A stretch of DNA of 32,234 nucleotides from contig DAOUPR010000004.1 of the NCBI GenBank assembly GCA_030626065.1, positions 1-32,234 on the forward strand, written 5' to 3'. The position numbers and the translations under genes are program-made. The notes beneath the pieces were generated by a model. That model searched no databases and had not been told where the DNA came from. It saw only the letters and a list, made by a program, of their open reading frames with translations. This DNA is from Clostridium sp. (GTDB taxonomy: Bacteria > Bacillota > Clostridia > Clostridiales > Clostridiaceae). This document shows, piece after piece, positions 1 through 30,281 of the stretch (position 1 is the first letter of the stretch; each line of letters begins with the position of its first letter).

Positions 1-240
1 ACACTACCGATAAAGATTGACAAAACAAGAAAGTAATTTCTTGTACAGATTCAATCGGGTGTACTTCTAAGTACAGGTTTCCTTTATTAAAGAAAGCTTT
101 GTTTTAGAATATTGTTTGTTATTATAGGTATTACTTTGAGTTTATTTTAGTTATGTAATAGTGTTTAAATAGCAATGTTTTAAAATTAGTTGAGGATAAT
201 TTTACTGATGTGAAATTAGTTGTTAAATTAAAGATTTTAT

Positions 241-292
241 GAGGTACGAAGAAAATCATCCTTAATTGTGCATTGTAAATTGTGCATTGTGC
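241..292. repeat. Heptad element remnant: hairpin-I-like right arm plus ATTGTGC array, opposite orientation to 27761
   Basis: gaagaaaatcatccttaattgtgc followed by attgtaa attgtgc attgtgc; matches the reverse complement of the 27761 element's left arm. Confidence 0.75.
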
Positions 293-388
293 ATTAATTT
301 AAGATGGAAAAACTATTTATAAAGGATAATACATTTAATATAATCAATACTATAGCATAGCTCAAAAAATTAAAAGGGAGATATGTAT

Positions 389-5224: not shown

Positions 5225-5280
5225 CTAAATTACAGTCCTTTCTTTATAATTAATAATCTACAAGTAAGACTTTCACATTA

Positions 5281-5312
5281 ATTGTGCATTGTGCATTGTA
5301 AATTGTGCATTG
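5281..5312. repeat. Heptad array (ATTGTGC)2-ATTGTAA-ATTGTGC
   Basis: attgtgc attgtgc attgtaa attgtgc, exact 7-bp period. Confidence 0.9.
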
Positions 5313-6208: not shown

Positions 6209-6930
6209 AAATTGTAAGTTTTTTAAAAAGAAATCTTTTAGTAGCCTCTGTTATTTTGATTTATATAGCACTTTTTATATTTGCTCAAGATAAGGCGATT
6301 TCATCTGTAGATAATAGTATGTATTATGTTGTTGAAATGTTGCAAATTATGCCAGTTATTTTTCTTTTAACGGCTATTTTAGATGCGTGGGTTCCAAAGG
6401 ATGCTATTGTGAAGGGTTTGGGAGAAAATTCAGGAGCTAAAGGGATGTTATTATCTTTTCTTTTTGGAAGTATTTCTGCGGGACCTATATATGCAGCGTT
6501 TCCAGTGTGTAAAATGCTTCTAAATAAAGGAGCTAGTGTTAAAAATATTGTTGTTATTTTAAGTGCGTGGGCAGTAATTAAGGTACCAATGTTAGCTAAT
6601 GAAGCTAAATTTCTTGGTGTCCAATTTATGAGTATAAGATGGGTTTTAACTGTAATATCAATAGTATTTATTGCTTATTTTGTATCTTTGATTGTTAAAA
6701 GAGAAGATGTGAAAATTGAAAAAGTTAAAGAATTAAGTGAGGTTAAGAGTGTTAGTATAATAACGGAATCTTGTATTGGCTGTGGACTTTGTTCAAAGAC
6801 TATGCCGGAATATTTTGAAATGAATAATAGAAAAGCGAAAGTATCAAATAAGGTATTAAAGCCTGAAGATTTGGATAAATTAAGAGAAGTAAGTGAAAAA
6901 TGTCCTGCTAAGGTTATCAGATTAAATTAA
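6205..6930 (+). CDS. Permease C-terminal half fused to a C-terminal [4Fe-4S] ferredoxin domain
   Basis: FGSISAGPIYAAFPV permease half, then SCIGCGLCSKTMPEYF...SEKCPAKVIRLN ferredoxin domain. TTG start overlaps the upstream TGA. Confidence 0.8.
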   Translation: MKIVSFLKRNLLVASVILIYIALFIFAQDKAISSVDNSMYYVVEMLQIMPVIFLLTAILDAWVPKDAIVKGLGENSGAKGMLLSFLFGSISAGPIYAAFPVCKMLLNKGASVKNIVVILSAWAVIKVPMLANEAKFLGVQFMSIRWVLTVISIVFIAYFVSLIVKREDVKIEKVKELSEVKSVSIITESCIGCGLCSKTMPEYFEMNNRKAKVSNKVLKPEDLDKLREVSEKCPAKVIRLN

Positions 6931-9964: not shown

Positions 9965-10708
9965 GTGAAAGTAGTAATTCTTTGTGGAGGAAAAGGACTA
10001 AGAATGAGGGGGGGCAATGACGATATTCCTAAACCAATGGCATTGGTCAAGGACAAGCCTATTCTGTGGCATGTTATGAAATCTTATACTAAATTTGGAT
10101 TTAATGAGTTTGTACTTCCTCTTGGATATAAAGGTGAAAAGATTAAAGAATATTTTATTAATTATAAATGGAGAAATTCTAGTTTTACAACAGAATTTAA
10201 TAAAGAAACTATAGAATATCATAATGATATAGATATTAAAGATTGGAAAATTACTTTTGTGGATACTGGAGTAGAAACTATGACTGGCGGAAGAGTGAAA
10301 AGAATAGAAAAATATATTGATGGTGATATTTTTATGCTTACCTATGGAGACGGTTTATCTGATATTAATATTGGAGAGCTTGTCAAATTTCATAGAGAAA
10401 AAGGGAAAATAGCAACATTAACAGCTATAGAAAGGAAAAGTCAATACGGGATTCTTAATATAAAAAATGGTATAGTGGAATCTTTTGATGAAAAGACAAA
10501 ACTTGATGGATTAATAAATGGAGGATTTTTTGTTTTAGATAGAAAGATTTTTAATTATTTAGATGGTGATAGTTGTGTATTAGAAAAAGAACCATTGAGG
10601 CAGTTGGTAAAGGAGAGCGAACTTTCAGTATATGAACATAGGGGATACTGGAAGGCTATAGATACATTAAAAGATTTGAAAGTTGCGAATGAAACCTGGG
10701 AAAATTGA
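9965..10708 (+). CDS. rfbF: Glucose-1-phosphate cytidylyltransferase
   Basis: MKVVILCGGKGLRMRGGNDDIPKPMALVKDKPILWHVMKSY, nucleotidyltransferase of RfbF type; GTG start after gggagtgg. Confidence 0.9.
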   Translation: MKVVILCGGKGLRMRGGNDDIPKPMALVKDKPILWHVMKSYTKFGFNEFVLPLGYKGEKIKEYFINYKWRNSSFTTEFNKETIEYHNDIDIKDWKITFVDTGVETMTGGRVKRIEKYIDGDIFMLTYGDGLSDINIGELVKFHREKGKIATLTAIERKSQYGILNIKNGIVESFDEKTKLDGLINGGFFVLDRKIFNYLDGDSCVLEKEPLRQLVKESELSVYEHRGYWKAIDTLKDLKVANETWEN

Positions 10709-10724
10709 AAGGAGAGAAGAAGGA

Positions 10725-12977
10725 ATGAATACAAATTCACTAATAAATTTATTAAATGAAGTTTTGAATTATGTGCAAAGTGAAAATAGGACAGATTTAG
10801 TTAGATTGATGAATTCACTTGGAAATAACAATATAAGTATTCAAGACGTAATAGATCAGCTTTCAGAAGAATTAGAATATAAATTGGATAAGTCTAAAGA
10901 GTATGCTGAAAATTTTAATCAAGAGGAGTATTTATACAAAGATTCTATTAATAAGAAGCCTTTTAGAGACGATGAAGAATATGGTTATTATGCAGAAGCT
11001 GAATATGGAGAAGAAGACGATGAAAGAGAAATAATAGAAGCAAAATTTACTTCAATAGAAAAAGATAAAGCAGAATATAATTTTTGTACGCTTGCCGGTA
11101 AAGGATATTTAATTAAAATTATAACTTTTTATAGGTGTCTTTCTAGAAATACTAAAAATTTCAAGCTATGGATTTGTTGTATGGATGAAGTTATATATAG
11201 AGTTTTATCAAAACTGAACTTAAAAAATGCAGAGATTTATACGGTAGATAAATTGGAGACGCCACAATTACTGCAAGCTAAAAGAGAAAGAACAATGAGT
11301 GAATATTGTTGGACATTAAAAGCTCCAATGATGGAGTATCTTTTAGATAAATATAATTTAGAGAAGATTGTTTATTGTGATTCAGATATTTGTTTTTTCT
11401 CAAATGCTAAACAAATATATGATGAGTGGGGCGAAAAAAGTGTTTTCTTATGTCCACAAAGAGATAGAGAAAGTATTGAAGAAAAATATGGAACCTATCA
11501 AGCAGGGTTGATTGGATTTAAAAATGATAGTGAAGGTAGAGAAGCCTTAGAATGGTGGAAAAATAAATGTATAGAATGGTGCTTTAAAAGAGAAGATATT
11601 GAAAATGATAGATGGGCTGATCAGAAATATCTTGATAAAGTTCCAGAATTATTTAATAATCTCAAGATTACAGATAATTTAGGGATAAATGCAGCTCCTT
11701 GGAATTTGATATATAATAATGATTTTAATATTCAGAAGAAAAATAATTCTGTTTATATAGAAAAAAATAAATTGGTTGCATTTCATTTTGCATGTTTTTC
11801 TATTTTTAATAAGGATGAGTTTGACCTATGGAATTTAGGTAGGCTAGATATGAAATCAGTTATAAAAAAAGATATTTATGCAGTTTATATAAAAGAGTTA
11901 AGAAATACTATTGATATATTAAATAGAAAAATTACTCGTATTGACAAGCAGATTTATTCACAAAACAATAAGGATGAGGCAAAAAATTTTTATAAAGTTA
12001 ATAAAGTAAGAGAATATATGAATGACTATGATGATTACTATATTTTTTGTACACTTGCGTCAAAACAATATTTAGTTAAAGCTTTGACGTTATATAGATC
12101 TCTGAAAAAAAGAATGAATAATTTTCAATTATTTGTTTGTTGTATGGATAATACTGTTTATAAAATATTGAAAAGAATAAAAAGTAAAAATATTACAATC
12201 ATCAGATTACAAGAAATTGAAAAGCAAAATCCAGAATTATATAAGATTAAAAAAGAAAGAAATATTACTGAATATTGTTGGACATTAAAAGCGCCATTAA
12301 TAAAGTATGTTATAGATAATTATGGAATTCAATCAGTAGTTTATTTGGATTCAGATCAGTTTTTCTTCCAAAATCCTAAGCAAATATTTGAACAATGGAA
12401 AGATTTTTCAATATTAATGTGTACTCAAAGAGGTGATTTTGAGCTAGAGAGTGTACATGGTTATTATCAAGCGGGTCTTTTAGGTTTTCGAAGAGATAAT
12501 TATGGGTCTCCATGCTTAAAATGGTGGAAGGATAAATGTTTTGAATGGTGTTATGAAGAGTGGGATAAAGAAGAGAATAGATGGGGTGACCAAAAATATT
12601 TAGAGAAATTGCCTTATAAGTTTAAAAGTATAAAAGTTGTTAGAGATTTAGGCATTAATGCAGCGCCTTGGAATGTTGTTTTTAATAATGATTTTAAAGT
12701 AACGAAGAAAAATGGTGAAGTTTATATAGAAGACAAAAAGTTAATTGTATATCATTTTGGAAGTTTATTAATATATAAAAATGGACAATTTGATTTATGG
12801 AAGTTAGGGCCATTAGATTTTAAAGAAGAAGTAATTGAAAATATATACAAACCATATTTAAAAGAAATAAATAAGACTATTGATATTTTGGTTAAAAACG
12901 GCATTAACATTAATGATATTGTAAGTAACAAGGAGAATCCACAAAATTTATTTAAGCTAAATTCAAGGTGGAGATAA
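10725..12977 (+). CDS. Putative glycosyltransferase with two tandem homologous domains
   Basis: Two ~280-aa repeats each with FCTLA.K.YL, EYCWTLKAP, a DxD motif (YCDSDICFF / YLDSDQFFF), QAGL.GF, DQKYL and LGINAAPWN. ATG 10725 preceded by aaggag/gaagga. Confidence 0.7.
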   Translation: MNTNSLINLLNEVLNYVQSENRTDLVRLMNSLGNNNISIQDVIDQLSEELEYKLDKSKEYAENFNQEEYLYKDSINKKPFRDDEEYGYYAEAEYGEEDDEREIIEAKFTSIEKDKAEYNFCTLAGKGYLIKIITFYRCLSRNTKNFKLWICCMDEVIYRVLSKLNLKNAEIYTVDKLETPQLLQAKRERTMSEYCWTLKAPMMEYLLDKYNLEKIVYCDSDICFFSNAKQIYDEWGEKSVFLCPQRDRESIEEKYGTYQAGLIGFKNDSEGREALEWWKNKCIEWCFKREDIENDRWADQKYLDKVPELFNNLKITDNLGINAAPWNLIYNNDFNIQKKNNSVYIEKNKLVAFHFACFSIFNKDEFDLWNLGRLDMKSVIKKDIYAVYIKELRNTIDILNRKITRIDKQIYSQNNKDEAKNFYKVNKVREYMNDYDDYYIFCTLASKQYLVKALTLYRSLKKRMNNFQLFVCCMDNTVYKILKRIKSKNITIIRLQEIEKQNPELYKIKKERNITEYCWTLKAPLIKYVIDNYGIQSVVYLDSDQFFFQNPKQIFEQWKDFSILMCTQRGDFELESVHGYYQAGLLGFRRDNYGSPCLKWWKDKCFEWCYEEWDKEENRWGDQKYLEKLPYKFKSIKVVRDLGINAAPWNVVFNNDFKVTKKNGEVYIEDKKLIVYHFGSLLIYKNGQFDLWKLGPLDFKEEVIENIYKPYLKEINKTIDILVKNGININDIVSNKENPQNLFKLNSRWR

Positions 12978-16887: not shown

Positions 16888-17018
16888 TTCATAGAAAGAG
16901 GTTCTAAAAATTTCACCATAAAACAAAGTATGAATGACATCATATGTATATCTTTAATATTTAGGTAATATTTGATATGATTGATTTAATAATTGGAGAT
17001 ATTAAAAGGGGTGGGGTT

Positions 17019-18275
17019 ATGGATTTTTCAATTGGTTTTGGTAAAGGGGTTATGAAATTTAATATTAATGACAATAATGTTCAGCAAGTTTTGAGTCCTA
17101 ATAAAGTTTTAGTTGATTTAAAAGGGGAAGAAGAGGTTAAGAGAGCTTTAAAAGCACCAATAAATTCAGAAAGGCTTAAAGATATTGTAGCTAAAGAAGA
17201 AGATATAGTAATTATCACAAGTGATATTACTAGACCTATGCCTAGTAGAAAAGTACTTCCCGCAGTTATTGAAGAATTGAATAATGGAGGAGTACCAGAT
17301 AATAATATAACTATTATTTTTGCCCTTGGTAGCCATAGAAAGCATACAGAAGAAGAAAAAAAATATCTTGTAGGAGAAGAAATATATAATAGAATTAATT
17401 GTATTGATAGCGATGATAAGAATTATGTATGTTTAGGTGAAACGAGAAATGGTACACCAGTAGAAATATTTAAGCCTGTTGTAGATGGAAATCGAGTTGT
17501 ACTTCTTGGAAATATCGAGTATCATTATTTTGCTGGTTATAGTGGCGGATTGAAAGCGATAATGCCTGGAGTATCAACTAAGTCAGCAATACAAGCAAAT
17601 CATAAAAGAATGGTTGAAGAAGAAGCTAAAACAGGGAATATAGATACTAATCCCGTGAGACAGGATATTGAAGAAGCGGCGGAACTGGTAAACGTTGATT
17701 ATATAGTAAATGTTGTTTTAGATGAAAAGAAAGAAATTGTAAAAGCTGTATGCGGTCATCCTATAGATGCACATAGAGAAGGTTGTAAATTTTTAGATGC
17801 TTTATATAAAGTTCAAATAGATAAAAAGGCAGATATAGTTATAACCTCACCAGGGGGATATCCTAAAGATTTAAATCTTTATCAAGCTCAAAAGGCGTTA
17901 GATAATGCGAAACATGCCGTTAAAGAAAATGGCATAATAATTTTTGTGGCATCTTGTATAGAAGAATTTGGATCAAGTATATTTGAAGAATGGCTTTTAG
18001 AGGCAAAAAAAAGTGAAGAATTAGTTACTAGGATTCGTAAAGAATTTAAACTTGGGGGGCATAAAGCAGCTGCAATTGCTATGGTTCTTGAAAAATCTAA
18101 GATATATTTTGTTTCAGAAATGAAAGATAGTACAGTAAATAATATTTTTATGGAACCATATGGAGATGTTCAAAAAGCTTTAGATCAAGCTTTTATAGAA
18201 TTAGGCGAAGAGGCAAAAGTAGTAGTGATGCCTTATGGTGGTTCTACTTTACCTGTAGTTATTAATAAAAGTTAA
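17019..18275 (+). CDS. larA: LarA-like protein (nickel-dependent lactate racemase family, DUF2088-type)
   Basis: TSDITRPMPSRKVLP, GSHRKHTEEE, YFAGYSGGLKAIMPGVS, GGYPKDLNLYQAQKA. RBS aaaggggtgg fits ATG 17019. Exact substrate not determinable. Confidence 0.8.
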   Translation: MDFSIGFGKGVMKFNINDNNVQQVLSPNKVLVDLKGEEEVKRALKAPINSERLKDIVAKEEDIVIITSDITRPMPSRKVLPAVIEELNNGGVPDNNITIIFALGSHRKHTEEEKKYLVGEEIYNRINCIDSDDKNYVCLGETRNGTPVEIFKPVVDGNRVVLLGNIEYHYFAGYSGGLKAIMPGVSTKSAIQANHKRMVEEEAKTGNIDTNPVRQDIEEAAELVNVDYIVNVVLDEKKEIVKAVCGHPIDAHREGCKFLDALYKVQIDKKADIVITSPGGYPKDLNLYQAQKALDNAKHAVKENGIIIFVASCIEEFGSSIFEEWLLEAKKSEELVTRIRKEFKLGGHKAAAIAMVLEKSKIYFVSEMKDSTVNNIFMEPYGDVQKALDQAFIELGEEAKVVVMPYGGSTLPVVINKS

Positions 18276-18296: not shown

Positions 18297-18512
18297 GCAA
18301 TTTGCAATTCTTTTTAAAAGATAAATTGTAATTATTTTCAAAAGATAATTTGCAATGTGCAATTTGCAATGTGCAATTAATGTTGATTTTCTTCCCTTGG
18401 TCAGAAAATTTTGAATCATTAAATTAATTCAAAGATTTTGCGCAGCAAAATCATCCTTAATCCTTAATTGCTAATTGCTAATTGCTAATTGCTAATTGCT
18501 AATTACTAATTT
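18297..18512. repeat. Composite intergenic heptad element: left (GCAATKW) array, hairpin I, hairpin II, right (TTGCTAA)5-TTACTAA array
   Basis: Left heptads 18297-18310 and 18352-18379; hairpin gattttct/agaaaatt 18385-18410; hairpin gattttgc-gca-gcaaaatc 18434-18452; right heptads 18468-18509. Confidence 0.85.
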
Positions 18513-18526
18513 GTTTAAATATGGAA

Positions 18527-19660
18527 TCATTTTTGACCACAAACAGTCTTATAAGCATCGAGTGTTTCTTTTGCAGTTTTGTTCCATGAGTATTCAGAAC
18601 TTTTCTTTAAGCCTTTCTTTATTAAATTTCGTTTTAAATCTTGATTATTTAGAACTTTAGTTAATGAGCTGGTTATTTCATCAATTGAATGAGGATTAAT
18701 ATAATAAGCGGCATCTCCAATTATCTCAGGTATTGATGTTAGAGAAGAAGCTATAACTGGTGTGCCACATGCCATTGCTTCAATTGGAGGTAATCCGAAA
18801 CCTTCGTAAAATGAAGGATATACAAAAACCTCACAAGCATTATAGAAAATTGGCATATGATTTACTGGGATATAGCCAGTAAATATGACTTTATTTTCTA
18901 TTTTTAAATCTTCTACCTTCTTTTTATAAATACTATATGACAATCCTTTTTTGCCTGCAATAACAAGTTTAAGATTTCTATCTTTTGAGAGATTAATATA
19001 GTTACTAAAAGCTTCTATTAAACCAGTTATGTTTTTCCTAGGACTAAAACCTCCTACATAAAGTATGAAATTATCTCCAATTTTATATTTTCGATGGATA
19101 AAATTTTTGCATAAACTACTATCTATAGGATAATAAATTTCTTCGTTTGACAAATGTGTGACGAAAATTTTTTCTTTGGGATAATTAAACTGAGTTGCAA
19201 TATCATTTTTAGAATATTGGGATACAGTTATAATACCATCTGCATTATCAATAATAGTATCGATATATTTATGGAAAATTCTTAGGTAAGAATCGCTTAC
19301 GGTTTCAGGCATTTTATAAGGGATAATATCATGTAATGTAATAATAGTAGGGGTTGATTTATTAGAAAGCATTCCTATTCCGTTATGAGGTATATGATAA
19401 ATATTTGTTTTTTCGTTCAAATATTTCGGAGGAGTAGAAATATCATTCCAAAAATAACCGCTATAATTATTATTAGAAAAAATTATCTTTGAATTTTTAT
19501 TGTTAATATAAATATCTTCTTTTGATTCGTATGGTGCATATATATTATAGTGATTTTTATCATATTTCTTAATTAAAGAATATATAAGCTGATAAGTATA
19601 GGTTCCTATTCCAGTTCCTCTATACCAAAAAGCAGCACGTCCGTCTATTGATATGTTCAT
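18527..19660 (-). CDS. Glycosyltransferase family 1/4 (CotSA-like position next to a CotS-like gene)
   Basis: [76 protein letters not shown] at 19660 follows aaggga. Confidence 0.92.
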
Positions 19661-19790
19661 AATACATCCCTTCAATAAATTATAGATATAATTCAGTATA
19701 TTAGCGGTAGATTTAAAACGTTACGATAATTAATCTGTTCTAAATGAATATGGTACTTCATATAGTTTTTATATGGAGGTGAACTTAGTT

Positions 19791-27760: not shown

Positions 27761-27818
27761 AATGCACAATGCACAATGCACAATTAAGGTGGATTTTCTT
27801 CTCGTTGGTCAGAAAATC
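27761..27818. repeat. Heptad element: (AATGCAC)3 array plus hairpin I
   Basis: aatgcac x3 (27761-27781), then aattaaggtg and hairpin gattttct-tctcgttggtc-agaaaatc (27792-27818). Confidence 0.85.
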
Positions 27819-27900
27819 TATAATTAATGTAAAGAATTGCAAACAATGAGAAAGTCATTTACCGATGCATTTTATGTTTTAAAACAGAATATTACTAATA

Positions 27901-27940
27901 AAAAAGTGTTACCTAGATTTATTTGGGTAACACTTTTTGT
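27901..27940 (+). terminator. Terminator downstream of ispE
   Basis: Perfect 13-bp stem aaaaagtgttacc ... ggtaacacttttt. Confidence 0.85.
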
Positions 27941-28001
27941 TTTGCTATGTTTTAAAGAATTGCTGATTTATAAAGTATAGTTCTATCAAAAATAATTTAT
28001 T

Positions 28002-28150
28002 ATTAATAGTGTGAAATGTGAAGAGTCGAGTGTGAAGACATAAGTAATATCCTTATTATTAGGAAATCGTTAGATTAAATATTCGATTTTGCATAGCAAA
28101 ATCATCCTTAACTTCACACTTCAAATTCCACACTAAACACTATTATTAAA
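28002..28150. repeat. Composite heptad element with inverted degenerate heptads and hairpin II
   Basis: Left gtgtgaa/atgtgaa/gagtcga/gtgtgaa (28009-28036); hairpin gattttgc-ata-gcaaaatc (28085-28103); right ttcacac/ttcaaat/tccacac/taaacac (28113-28140). Confidence 0.8.
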
Positions 28151-28562: not shown

Positions 28563-30023
28563 ATGAAGGAGTGGCTAAGAGAAGAAATATCAACTCAAAT
28601 TGATGACAATTTGAGTTATTTGAAAGAAATATTAAAAGATAATACGGACATTGTATTTAGGGAGTTTTATGTACAGGAATGGAAGGCTGCATTTATATAC
28701 ATAGATGGAATGGCAGATAAAATTTTATTGAGTGATTTTGTATTAAAAGCAATGATGGATACGAATACTCAAATAACTGAGATAAATGAAGTGAAGGGAA
28801 AATTATTAGCTGCTTCAGAAGTAGATGATGTAACTGACTTATCAGAAGGTATAAAAGCTGCTTTAGCAGGAGATACTTTTATGCTTTTAGATGGGATGAG
28901 TACTGGATATGTTTTAGGAACTAGATATTGGCCTGCAAGAGGGGTAAGTGAACCATCAGGTGAAACTGTTGTGAGGGGGTCAAGAGAAGGCTTTACAGAA
29001 ACAGTTAGATTTAATACTGCTCTTGTTAGAAGAAGGGTTAGGGATACTAGATTTAGATTAACATCAAAGTCTATAGGAGAAAGATCAAAGACAGATGTTG
29101 CAATTCTTTATATAGATGATATTGTAAATAAAACTGTTTTAAATGAGTTAATGGAAAGACTGGATACAGTACAAATTGATGCAATTCTAGATAGTGGATA
29201 TATTGAACAGATGATTGAAGATGACCCATATTCACCATTTCCTCAAATACAAAGTACTGAGAGGCCAGATGTTGTAGCGGCGGCATTATATGAAGGAAGA
29301 GTTGGTATTTTGGTGGATAACACTCCTTTTGCATTAGTTGTTCCGGCAACTCTAAATAATATAGTGCAATCACCAGATGATTATTATCAAAGGTGGATGC
29401 ATGCTTCAATAGTTAGATTAATAAGATATATGGCTATGTTTATTTCTTTGATTTTGCCATCTATCTATATAGCTTTTACATCGTTTCACACGGGGATAAT
29501 ACCTACAGAGTTAGCATATTCTATTGCAGCTTCAAGAGAAGGAGTACCATTTCCAGCCTTCGTGGAAGTGTTAATAATGGAGGTAAGTCTTGCTTTTTTG
29601 TTAGAGGCGATTGTAAGGTTACCGAAACCCATTGGAGCTACAATAGGGATTGTTGGAGGATTAATTATAGGTCAGGCTGCAGTGTCGGCAGGAATCGTTA
29701 GTCCTATTATGATTATAATTGTTTCAACTACGGCAATAACGGAATTTGTTACTTCAAATTATGCATTAAGTATGGCTTTTAGAACAGTTAGATTTATGTT
29801 GATATTAGCCTCTACATTTTTAGGGTTTTATGGTATATTGATTGGTTTGCTAGTGTTCTTGATACATTTAATAAGGTTAAGAAGTTTCGGAATACCATAT
29901 TTAGCACCGGCTGTAAGACCACAATTGAAAGATCAAAAAGATTTTCTAGTAAGGTTACCATTTGGTTTTTTTAAAGAGAGACCTCAATATATGAAGAGTA
30001 GAGATAGGATAAGACAGAAGTAA
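28563..30023 (+). CDS. Spore germination protein, GerA family (A subunit)
   Basis: GDTFMLLDG, SREGFTETVRFNTALVRRRVRD, C-terminal TM domain, RPQLKDQKDFLVRLP. Confidence 0.95.
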   Translation: MKEWLREEISTQIDDNLSYLKEILKDNTDIVFREFYVQEWKAAFIYIDGMADKILLSDFVLKAMMDTNTQITEINEVKGKLLAASEVDDVTDLSEGIKAALAGDTFMLLDGMSTGYVLGTRYWPARGVSEPSGETVVRGSREGFTETVRFNTALVRRRVRDTRFRLTSKSIGERSKTDVAILYIDDIVNKTVLNELMERLDTVQIDAILDSGYIEQMIEDDPYSPFPQIQSTERPDVVAAALYEGRVGILVDNTPFALVVPATLNNIVQSPDDYYQRWMHASIVRLIRYMAMFISLILPSIYIAFTSFHTGIIPTELAYSIAASREGVPFPAFVEVLIMEVSLAFLLEAIVRLPKPIGATIGIVGGLIIGQAAVSAGIVSPIMIIIVSTTAITEFVTSNYALSMAFRTVRFMLILASTFLGFYGILIGLLVFLIHLIRLRSFGIPYLAPAVRPQLKDQKDFLVRLPFGFFKERPQYMKSRDRIRQK

Positions 30024-30028
30024 AGAAT

Positions 30029-30112
30029 AATGCACAATGCACAATTTAGGAGGATTTTCTTTCCTTTGGTCAGAAAATCTTTTGATTTATTAAAGATTAA
30101 AGATTAAAGATT
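30029..30112. repeat. Heptad element: (AATGCAC)2, hairpin I, (AAAGATT)3
   Basis: aatgcac x2 (30029-30042), hairpin gattttct-ttcctttggtc-agaaaatc (30053-30079), aaagatt x3 (30092-30112). Confidence 0.85.
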
Positions 30113-30150
30113 AAATAGCTTTTCACCTGTGGTAAAAAGGGGGAAGAAAA

Positions 30151-30174
30151 ATAAAGATAAAAATAAAGATAAAA
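30151..30174. repeat. 12-bp direct repeat ATAAAGATAAAA x2
   Basis: ataaagataaaa ataaagataaaa atac. Confidence 0.6.
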
Positions 30175-30246
30175 ATACAATCAGAGACGTAGGCTCAATC
30201 AAAAGATATAAGGAGTTTTAAAGTTATTCGGAGAGCTATAATGATT

Positions 30247-30281
30247 GTGAACTGTGAACTGTGAACTGTGAACTGTGAACT
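30247..30281. repeat. Heptad array (GTGAACT)5
   Basis: Five exact 7-bp units. Confidence 0.95.

Follow-up and report, generated by a model that had tools for sequence, protein, structure and literature searches.

The intergenic region at 18297-18512 of a 32,234-nt stretch of Clostridium DNA (the window, by which the whole analysed stretch is meant) raises the question of what kind of sequence places inverted arrays of 7-nt repeats on either side of two hairpins. The region lies between two convergent genes, identified by Pfam as encoding a LarA-type protein (16977-18275) and a group 1/family 4 glycosyltransferase (18527-19675, minus strand). The first-pass annotation had named heptads, two hairpins and a boundary sequence here, and all of these pieces are located at 18347-18511. 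The parts are as follows.

Out to about 18297, plus strand: older, decayed units of the left arm, beyond the heptads that are in register
18347-18374, plus strand: left arm, heptads AATTTGC AATGTGC AATTTGC AATGTGC, in register with the boundary
18375-18384, plus strand: left boundary unit AATTAATGTT, itself heptad-like (family consensus ARTTAAGGAT)
18385-18410, plus strand: hairpin I, gattttct-tcccttggtc-agaaaatt
18411-18433, plus strand: AT-rich linker, in which a weak hairpin is possible
18434-18452, plus strand: hairpin II, gattttgc-gca-gcaaaatc
18453-18461, plus strand: right boundary atccttaat, the complement of the left boundary consensus
18462-18511, minus strand: right arm, read toward the core as AATTAGT (outermost), AATTAGC x5, then AATTAAG

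When the 216-nt stretch is folded, the heptad arms pair into a single long stem whose tip bears hairpins I and II together with a weak AT-rich hairpin. The fold has a z-score of -5.2 as DNA and -5.1 as RNA, and none of 200 shuffled sequences was equally stable, which bears out the earlier suggestion that the whole region could form one stem-loop. Exact period-7 arrays of at least three copies occur four times in the window, against none in 100 dinucleotide shuffles; exact arrays of the other periods from 4 to 11 are absent from the window.

Several further copies and solo arrays are found in the same window.

182-296, minus strand: half-element, a hairpin (gaagaaaatc side) and a heptad arm
5278-5312, minus strand: solo heptad array of AATGCAC type, no hairpin
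27761-27820, plus strand: half-element, an AATGCAC arm, boundary and hairpin I
28010-28137, plus strand: second two-sided element, with AGTGTGA-type arms, a variant hairpin I, and hairpin II at 28085-28103
30022-30121, plus strand: element with an AATGCAC left arm and hairpin I, no hairpin II
30089-30115, read on the minus strand: AATCTTT heptads forming the right arm of the element at 30022-30121
30246-30281, minus strand: solo heptad array, AGTTCAC x5, no hairpin

The same hairpins and boundary had been said to recur at 241, 27761, 28002 and 30029. Related copies are present at all four places, but only the copy at 28010-28137 is two-sided: those at 182-296 and 27761-27820 are half-elements with one arm and one hairpin, and the one at 30022-30121 has two arms and a single hairpin.

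The window holds other kinds of repeat as well. A 12-nt tandem repeat, AAAAATAAAGAT, adjoins the heptad elements at 30147-30177, between spore germination genes, and a 764-aa ORF (10683-12977) contains an internal repeat of 77% identity (11262-11354 and 12231-12323, 969 bp apart). A further repeat, roughly GCTATGTTTTAAAGAATTGTTGATTTATAAAATATTGTTTAAATAA and its inverse, occurs around elements of this genome (in the flanks of L001-L030, and at 27888-27980 of the window).

Used as a DNA query against its own genome, the core finds about 40 copies. A covariance model (A1) built from 25 copies matches all but one of the 150 candidates listed at E <= 0.01, and the 2.85 Mb draft holds at least about 140 distinct copies after strand duplicates are merged. 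The common architecture, taken from 68 elements with 136 arms parsed in register, is [ARTNNRC]n - ARTTAAGGATG - hairpin I - AT-rich linker - hairpin II - CATCCTTAAYT - [inverted heptads]n. The motif ART is matched in 90% of first heptads in phase and in 0-3% in the other phases, so that the arms keep an exact 7-nt register with the boundary; the information in the heptad lies mostly at positions 1, 3 and 7. Because the boundary is itself a heptad-like unit, the arm enters the core with no break in phase. All 49 copies tested lie clear of ORFs of 100 aa or more; the crude ORF caller used for this assigns 76% of the sequence as coding.

The relation between the two arms is looser than first described. 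The arms had been called near reverse complements: both do share the ART scaffold and in most cases the terminal C, but the heptads on the two sides often are not reverse complements. Neighbouring heptads within an arm are 72% identical, compared with 58% for left against right in the same element and 53% for left against right across elements. The commonest pairing, AATGCAC with AATTAGC (8 of 68 elements), joins unlike arms, and certain hairpin types go with particular heptads, as the ATTTCCTCATTC hairpin does with AGTGTGA arms. Chimaeric and half elements occur throughout, half-elements and solo arrays in the window itself among them. Since the arms of one element are often unlike, some hairpin types go with their own heptads, and half-elements and solo arrays exist, the element is best seen as two facing half-elements, each inheriting its own heptads. 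A minimal form, a near-perfect palindrome in which two heptad arms enclose one hairpin, is seen in C. hydrogenum (L245, around 6751-6827). Elsewhere, the palindromes AAAATATTGCAATGCAATATTTT and AAAGTGCTTCGCAAAGTTTTT often stand just outside the heptad arms (L074, L140, L141 and others); these may belong to a larger composite, or be terminator-like repeats nested there.

Beyond this genome, the model matched in 41 of 195 genomes sampled across the bacterial family, in 17 of 46 genera. The matching genera have heptads of their own (for example AGTAACC, AGAGGAC, AATTGAC, AAAGTTC, AATTAGT and AATGATG). Outside the family, a broader model (R2) had no match among 291 genomes sampled from the class; of 299 genomes drawn from the phylum it matched just one, a member of another class. 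This genome (G252) has several good copies with AATTGAC-type heptads and the same boundary (L253, L255, L260, L262, L264, L266, L270), possibly acquired by horizontal transfer. In the GTDB collection a scaffold pattern picks out 53 stretches, all from one Bacillota MAG or from Clostridium species with names (C. guangxiense, C. hydrogenum, C. sp. cel8, C. ragsdalei and C. ljungdahlii); an earlier pattern specific to hairpin II of the own genome had no match in a scan of genome contigs. An exact-pattern scan of viral contigs gave none, and similar DNA was found neither in plasmids (three members as query) nor in phages (two members as query).

The hairpins are conserved as structures. Both are about 98% paired across genera, and all 15 hairpin pairs show double changes in the alignment that spans them (A3). 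Over the whole structure, 90.5% of the cells in A3 are paired, compared with 42-64% when the structure is slid, and double changes occupy 204 cells where 54 are expected from shuffles; this covariation is somewhat inflated, as A3 was fitted to the model, and the slid and shuffled controls are the safeguard. In 35 non-redundant rows, 89.9% are paired overall. The covariance model and the scans of the genome and its relatives that the first-pass annotation had proposed thus came out positive, and its claim of a repeat family with an architecture of its own, distinct from a microsatellite, stands: further copies with the same order of parts abound, and Rfam has no match for the window or for elements from ten other loci. 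The family is real, widespread and fast-evolving, and consists of foldback-like miniature elements. What the present analysis adds to that account is that the two half-elements vary independently, and that the elements are polymorphic, apparently mobile and widespread in the bacterial family.

Evidence for mobility comes from comparison of genomes. In one genome (G053) about 20 near-identical copies of 250-330 bp lie at unrelated sites, with arms of 18, 25, 32 or 39 nt, that is, in whole-heptad steps in all 44 arms. These copies have fixed, inverted outer ends outside the heptads, with AATATTACGNACTAA at both ends, and no evident target duplication. Two other genomes, G151 and G160, which represent sister species, were compared over about 195 kb of aligned sequence, mostly 93-97% identical, with coordinates mapped by hand; the flanks of the elements are 95-97% identical. 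The R2 matches listed number 6 in G151 and 13 in G160, and none of the 19 is common in place: each falls in a stretch with no alignment to the other genome. Several sites are filled in both, but with different elements, and at one orthologous site G151, G160 and G157 each have a different one. Where a filled site can be set against an empty one, two sites have candidate target duplications, of 8 and 9 bp, one of them imperfect in the left copy; at three others the overlap is 4, 5 or 7 bp or is not clear-cut. At the G151 232360 site the heptads start at the junction. Changes in the length of heptad arrays within the aligned sequence are too few for a conclusion.

A second, unrelated miniature element, TCCGATGACTACCTGCTCTAATRCTC...CAAGAACTCTG, is present in the same syntenic stretch (L159-L198, for example at G151 A-coordinates 26221, 42082 and 174506). 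It has clean empty sites, and its duplication is TTTAT in two cases and TTTA in one, which shows that the duplication test works. One G160 site had suggested that flanking host DNA is the source of the heptads, an idea dropped because the filled and empty pairs did not support it.

The element is probably a non-autonomous, MITE- or REPIN-like mobile foldback element with two exchangeable halves, moved in trans. Transposition is the best explanation of the comparative evidence, on which it rests. Each half consists of a heptad array, a boundary unit and a hairpin, and a single strand would fold into a long heptad stem with the two small hairpins on top. An enzyme encoded elsewhere would move the copies by reading this folded shape, a proposal made because the hairpin pairs differ in sequence between genera yet remain paired. 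The heptad arrays would lengthen and shorten by slippage, one unit per step. New copies would often insert in or beside old ones, and deletions would then leave half-elements, and chimaeras with unlike arms; such nested landing and deletion would also produce three different elements at one orthologous site in three close relatives. Part of the replacement pattern could come from ectopic recombination between old copies, with no new transposition. A point against a mobile element is that subfamilies differ in their outermost sequence, which is not what a classic transposase end would look like. Facing halves separated by 0.7-5 kb, taken from 1.47 Mb of sampled sequence, yielded no autonomous copy, and the genes scanned between them were ordinary host genes, with no mobilising enzyme among them. 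Any benefit to the host is putative, and selfish DNA is the default view.

Other explanations account for parts of these observations. If the element were a MITE of a DDE transposase, its true ends would be farther out than the heptads, leaving the heptad stem and hairpins as internal filler. The G053 copies, whose inverted ends do lie outside the heptads, and the candidate duplications, whose 8-9 bp are of DDE type, agree with such an origin, which is nevertheless unlikely: at the G151 232360 site the junction is where the heptads begin, the outer sequence varies between genera where the heptads, boundary and hairpins form the conserved core, and filler would not retain covarying hairpins. 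Mobilisation of REP or REPIN elements by a RAYT-type (Y1, IS200/IS605-like) transposase is suggested by the inverted hairpin doublets, the singlet remnants and the extragenic placement, by the clover fold proposed for REPINs (PMC3116915), and by Y1_Tnp proteins in 12 of 14 element-bearing genomes tested, several of them of RAYT size (about 310 aa). However, the element-rich genomes G151 (complete, in a single contig) and G114 have no Y1_Tnp match, and most of the Y1 genes examined have a different palindrome, GGGACGGTTC...GAACCGTCCC, on their flanks, with heptad arms beside none of them, so that mobilisation by a RAYT is not supported. The hairpin base, moreover, carries no fixed GTAG tag: it reads ARTTAAGGAT in alignments A1 and A3, and GTAG appears in some hairpin II loops only. 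Recent loss of a RAYT from G151 and G114 after the spread of the elements is possible, and the RAYT explanation as a whole seems improbable. The Y1 genes are of interest in themselves: RAYT-size genes (about 300-325 aa) with GGGACGGTTC...GAACCGTCCC flanks form a REPtron-like arrangement in Clostridiaceae (L292, L296, L298, L299, L301-L304, L308), and the Y1_Tnp matches of the own genome (G000 contigs C24, C26, C188 and C207) are mostly truncated or interrupted by stops, with no clearly intact full-length copy in the draft.

The two remaining explanations do without dedicated mobility or place the cause in the host. Intergenic placement, a stable RNA fold and conserved pairing would suit RNA or DNA structures kept by selection for the host, such as 3' UTR stabilisers, terminators or protein-binding sites, with heptads arising from slippage. 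Convergent gene ends are not preferred, however: the copies lie in 5 convergent, 31 co-directional and 4 divergent gaps, compared with 16, 69 and 20 among all gaps longer than 120 bp, and a terminator role, considered on the basis of gene orientation, was set aside for want of enrichment at convergent ends. A conserved function would also not be expected to turn over almost completely between sister species, and a host role of this kind is quite improbable. Covariation could in principle arise with no selection at all, through template-switching correction of quasi-palindromes combined with STRR-like slippage of the heptads; the whole-heptad length changes and the likeness of left and right arms of one element, only slightly above chance, fit such a process. 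It leaves unexplained the near-identical copies at dozens of sites, the filled and empty sites, and the fact that in many genera the heptads stay exactly in register with a conserved boundary, and is very improbable as a full account.

An excess of 7-nt repeats in bacterial genomes is on record but lacks an accepted explanation; PMC4692102 cites a hypothesis of DNA-polymerase slippage. Heptad arrays alone are not new and are already in the literature of other bacteria: in the sections accessible, TAACTGA arrays are described in Beggiatoaceae, Cyanobacteria and Bacteroidetes (PMC4679880), GGGAATC in Xanthomonas, with 70-75 convergent (inverted) pairs, and GGGGA(C/T)T in Nostoc (PMC4692102), and four-heptad elements in Geobacter (PMC2700814). 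Like the present element, these are intergenic, high-copy, 7-nt direct repeats, and the 7-nt indels reported there between Cyanothece strains resemble its whole-heptad changes. The TAACTGA, GGGAATC and GGGGA(C/T)T units can each be phased to contain A-R-T, a weak likeness with an estimated chance of roughly one in three each. A boundary unit, a paired-hairpin core and insertion polymorphism of a defined element are not described in those parts of this open-access PMC literature, and the element is more than an STRR-type array of nothing but direct 7-nt repeats, for it has a boundary and a covarying hairpin core in register. There is a small chance that the heptad array acts as an iteron-like landing array for an enzyme working on the folded single strand, the stem and two hairpins acting as T-shaped terminal repeats do in rolling-hairpin replicons; the cyanobacterial, Xanthomonas, Beggiatoaceae and Geobacter arrays would then be remnants or relatives of elements of this class. 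The heptads described here belong to an element that is defined, dispersed and apparently mobile and whose core covaries, so that the heptad excess becomes a testable question: which enzyme moves the element, and why the unit is seven.

With REPINs and the REP-RAYT system (PMC3116915, PMC3733652) the element has in common the inverted doublet of extragenic hairpin units, high copy number, singlet remnants and a clover fold. It differs in its 7-nt array arms, in having no GTAG/CGTC tag and no linked RAYT, and in being abundant in two genomes that are devoid of Y1_Tnp. Bacterial MITEs (reviewed in PMC10969869) are likewise short, non-coding, polymorphic and dispersed between genes, with inverted arms. 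The element, unlike them, has sub-repeated arms, no terminal sequence fixed throughout the family and no parental IS found; its arms are inverted in scaffold only, and the heptads vary by arm and by subfamily, though the G053 copies do have fixed inverted ends farther out. The text of that review has no mention of tandem repeat, heptanucleotide or Clostridi. The families Clop-1, Clot-1 and Clot-3 of C. perfringens and C. tetani, which appear in surveys of stem-loop families (PMC2267715), may or may not be related.

The closest likeness in form is to the foldback (FB) transposons, such as Tm1, as presented in the accessible sections of PMC3169594. These too have composite inverted arms of variable short tandem sub-repeats, with unequal arm lengths, and include MITE-like members; their target duplications of 8-10 bp compare with the 8 and 9 bp candidates of the element. 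FB transposons are eukaryotic, the sub-repeat of Tm1 is about 14 bp and a transposase-encoding member is known, whereas the element is bacterial, its unit is 7 nt and no such member has been found; a conserved pair of small hairpins at the tip, as in the element, is not described in those sections. The likeness is an analogy only, and membership of the FB/Mutator group is not claimed. By that analogy, the element, through which many intergenic regions have come to differ between sister species only a few percent diverged, may be regarded as a bacterial counterpart to the foldback transposons.
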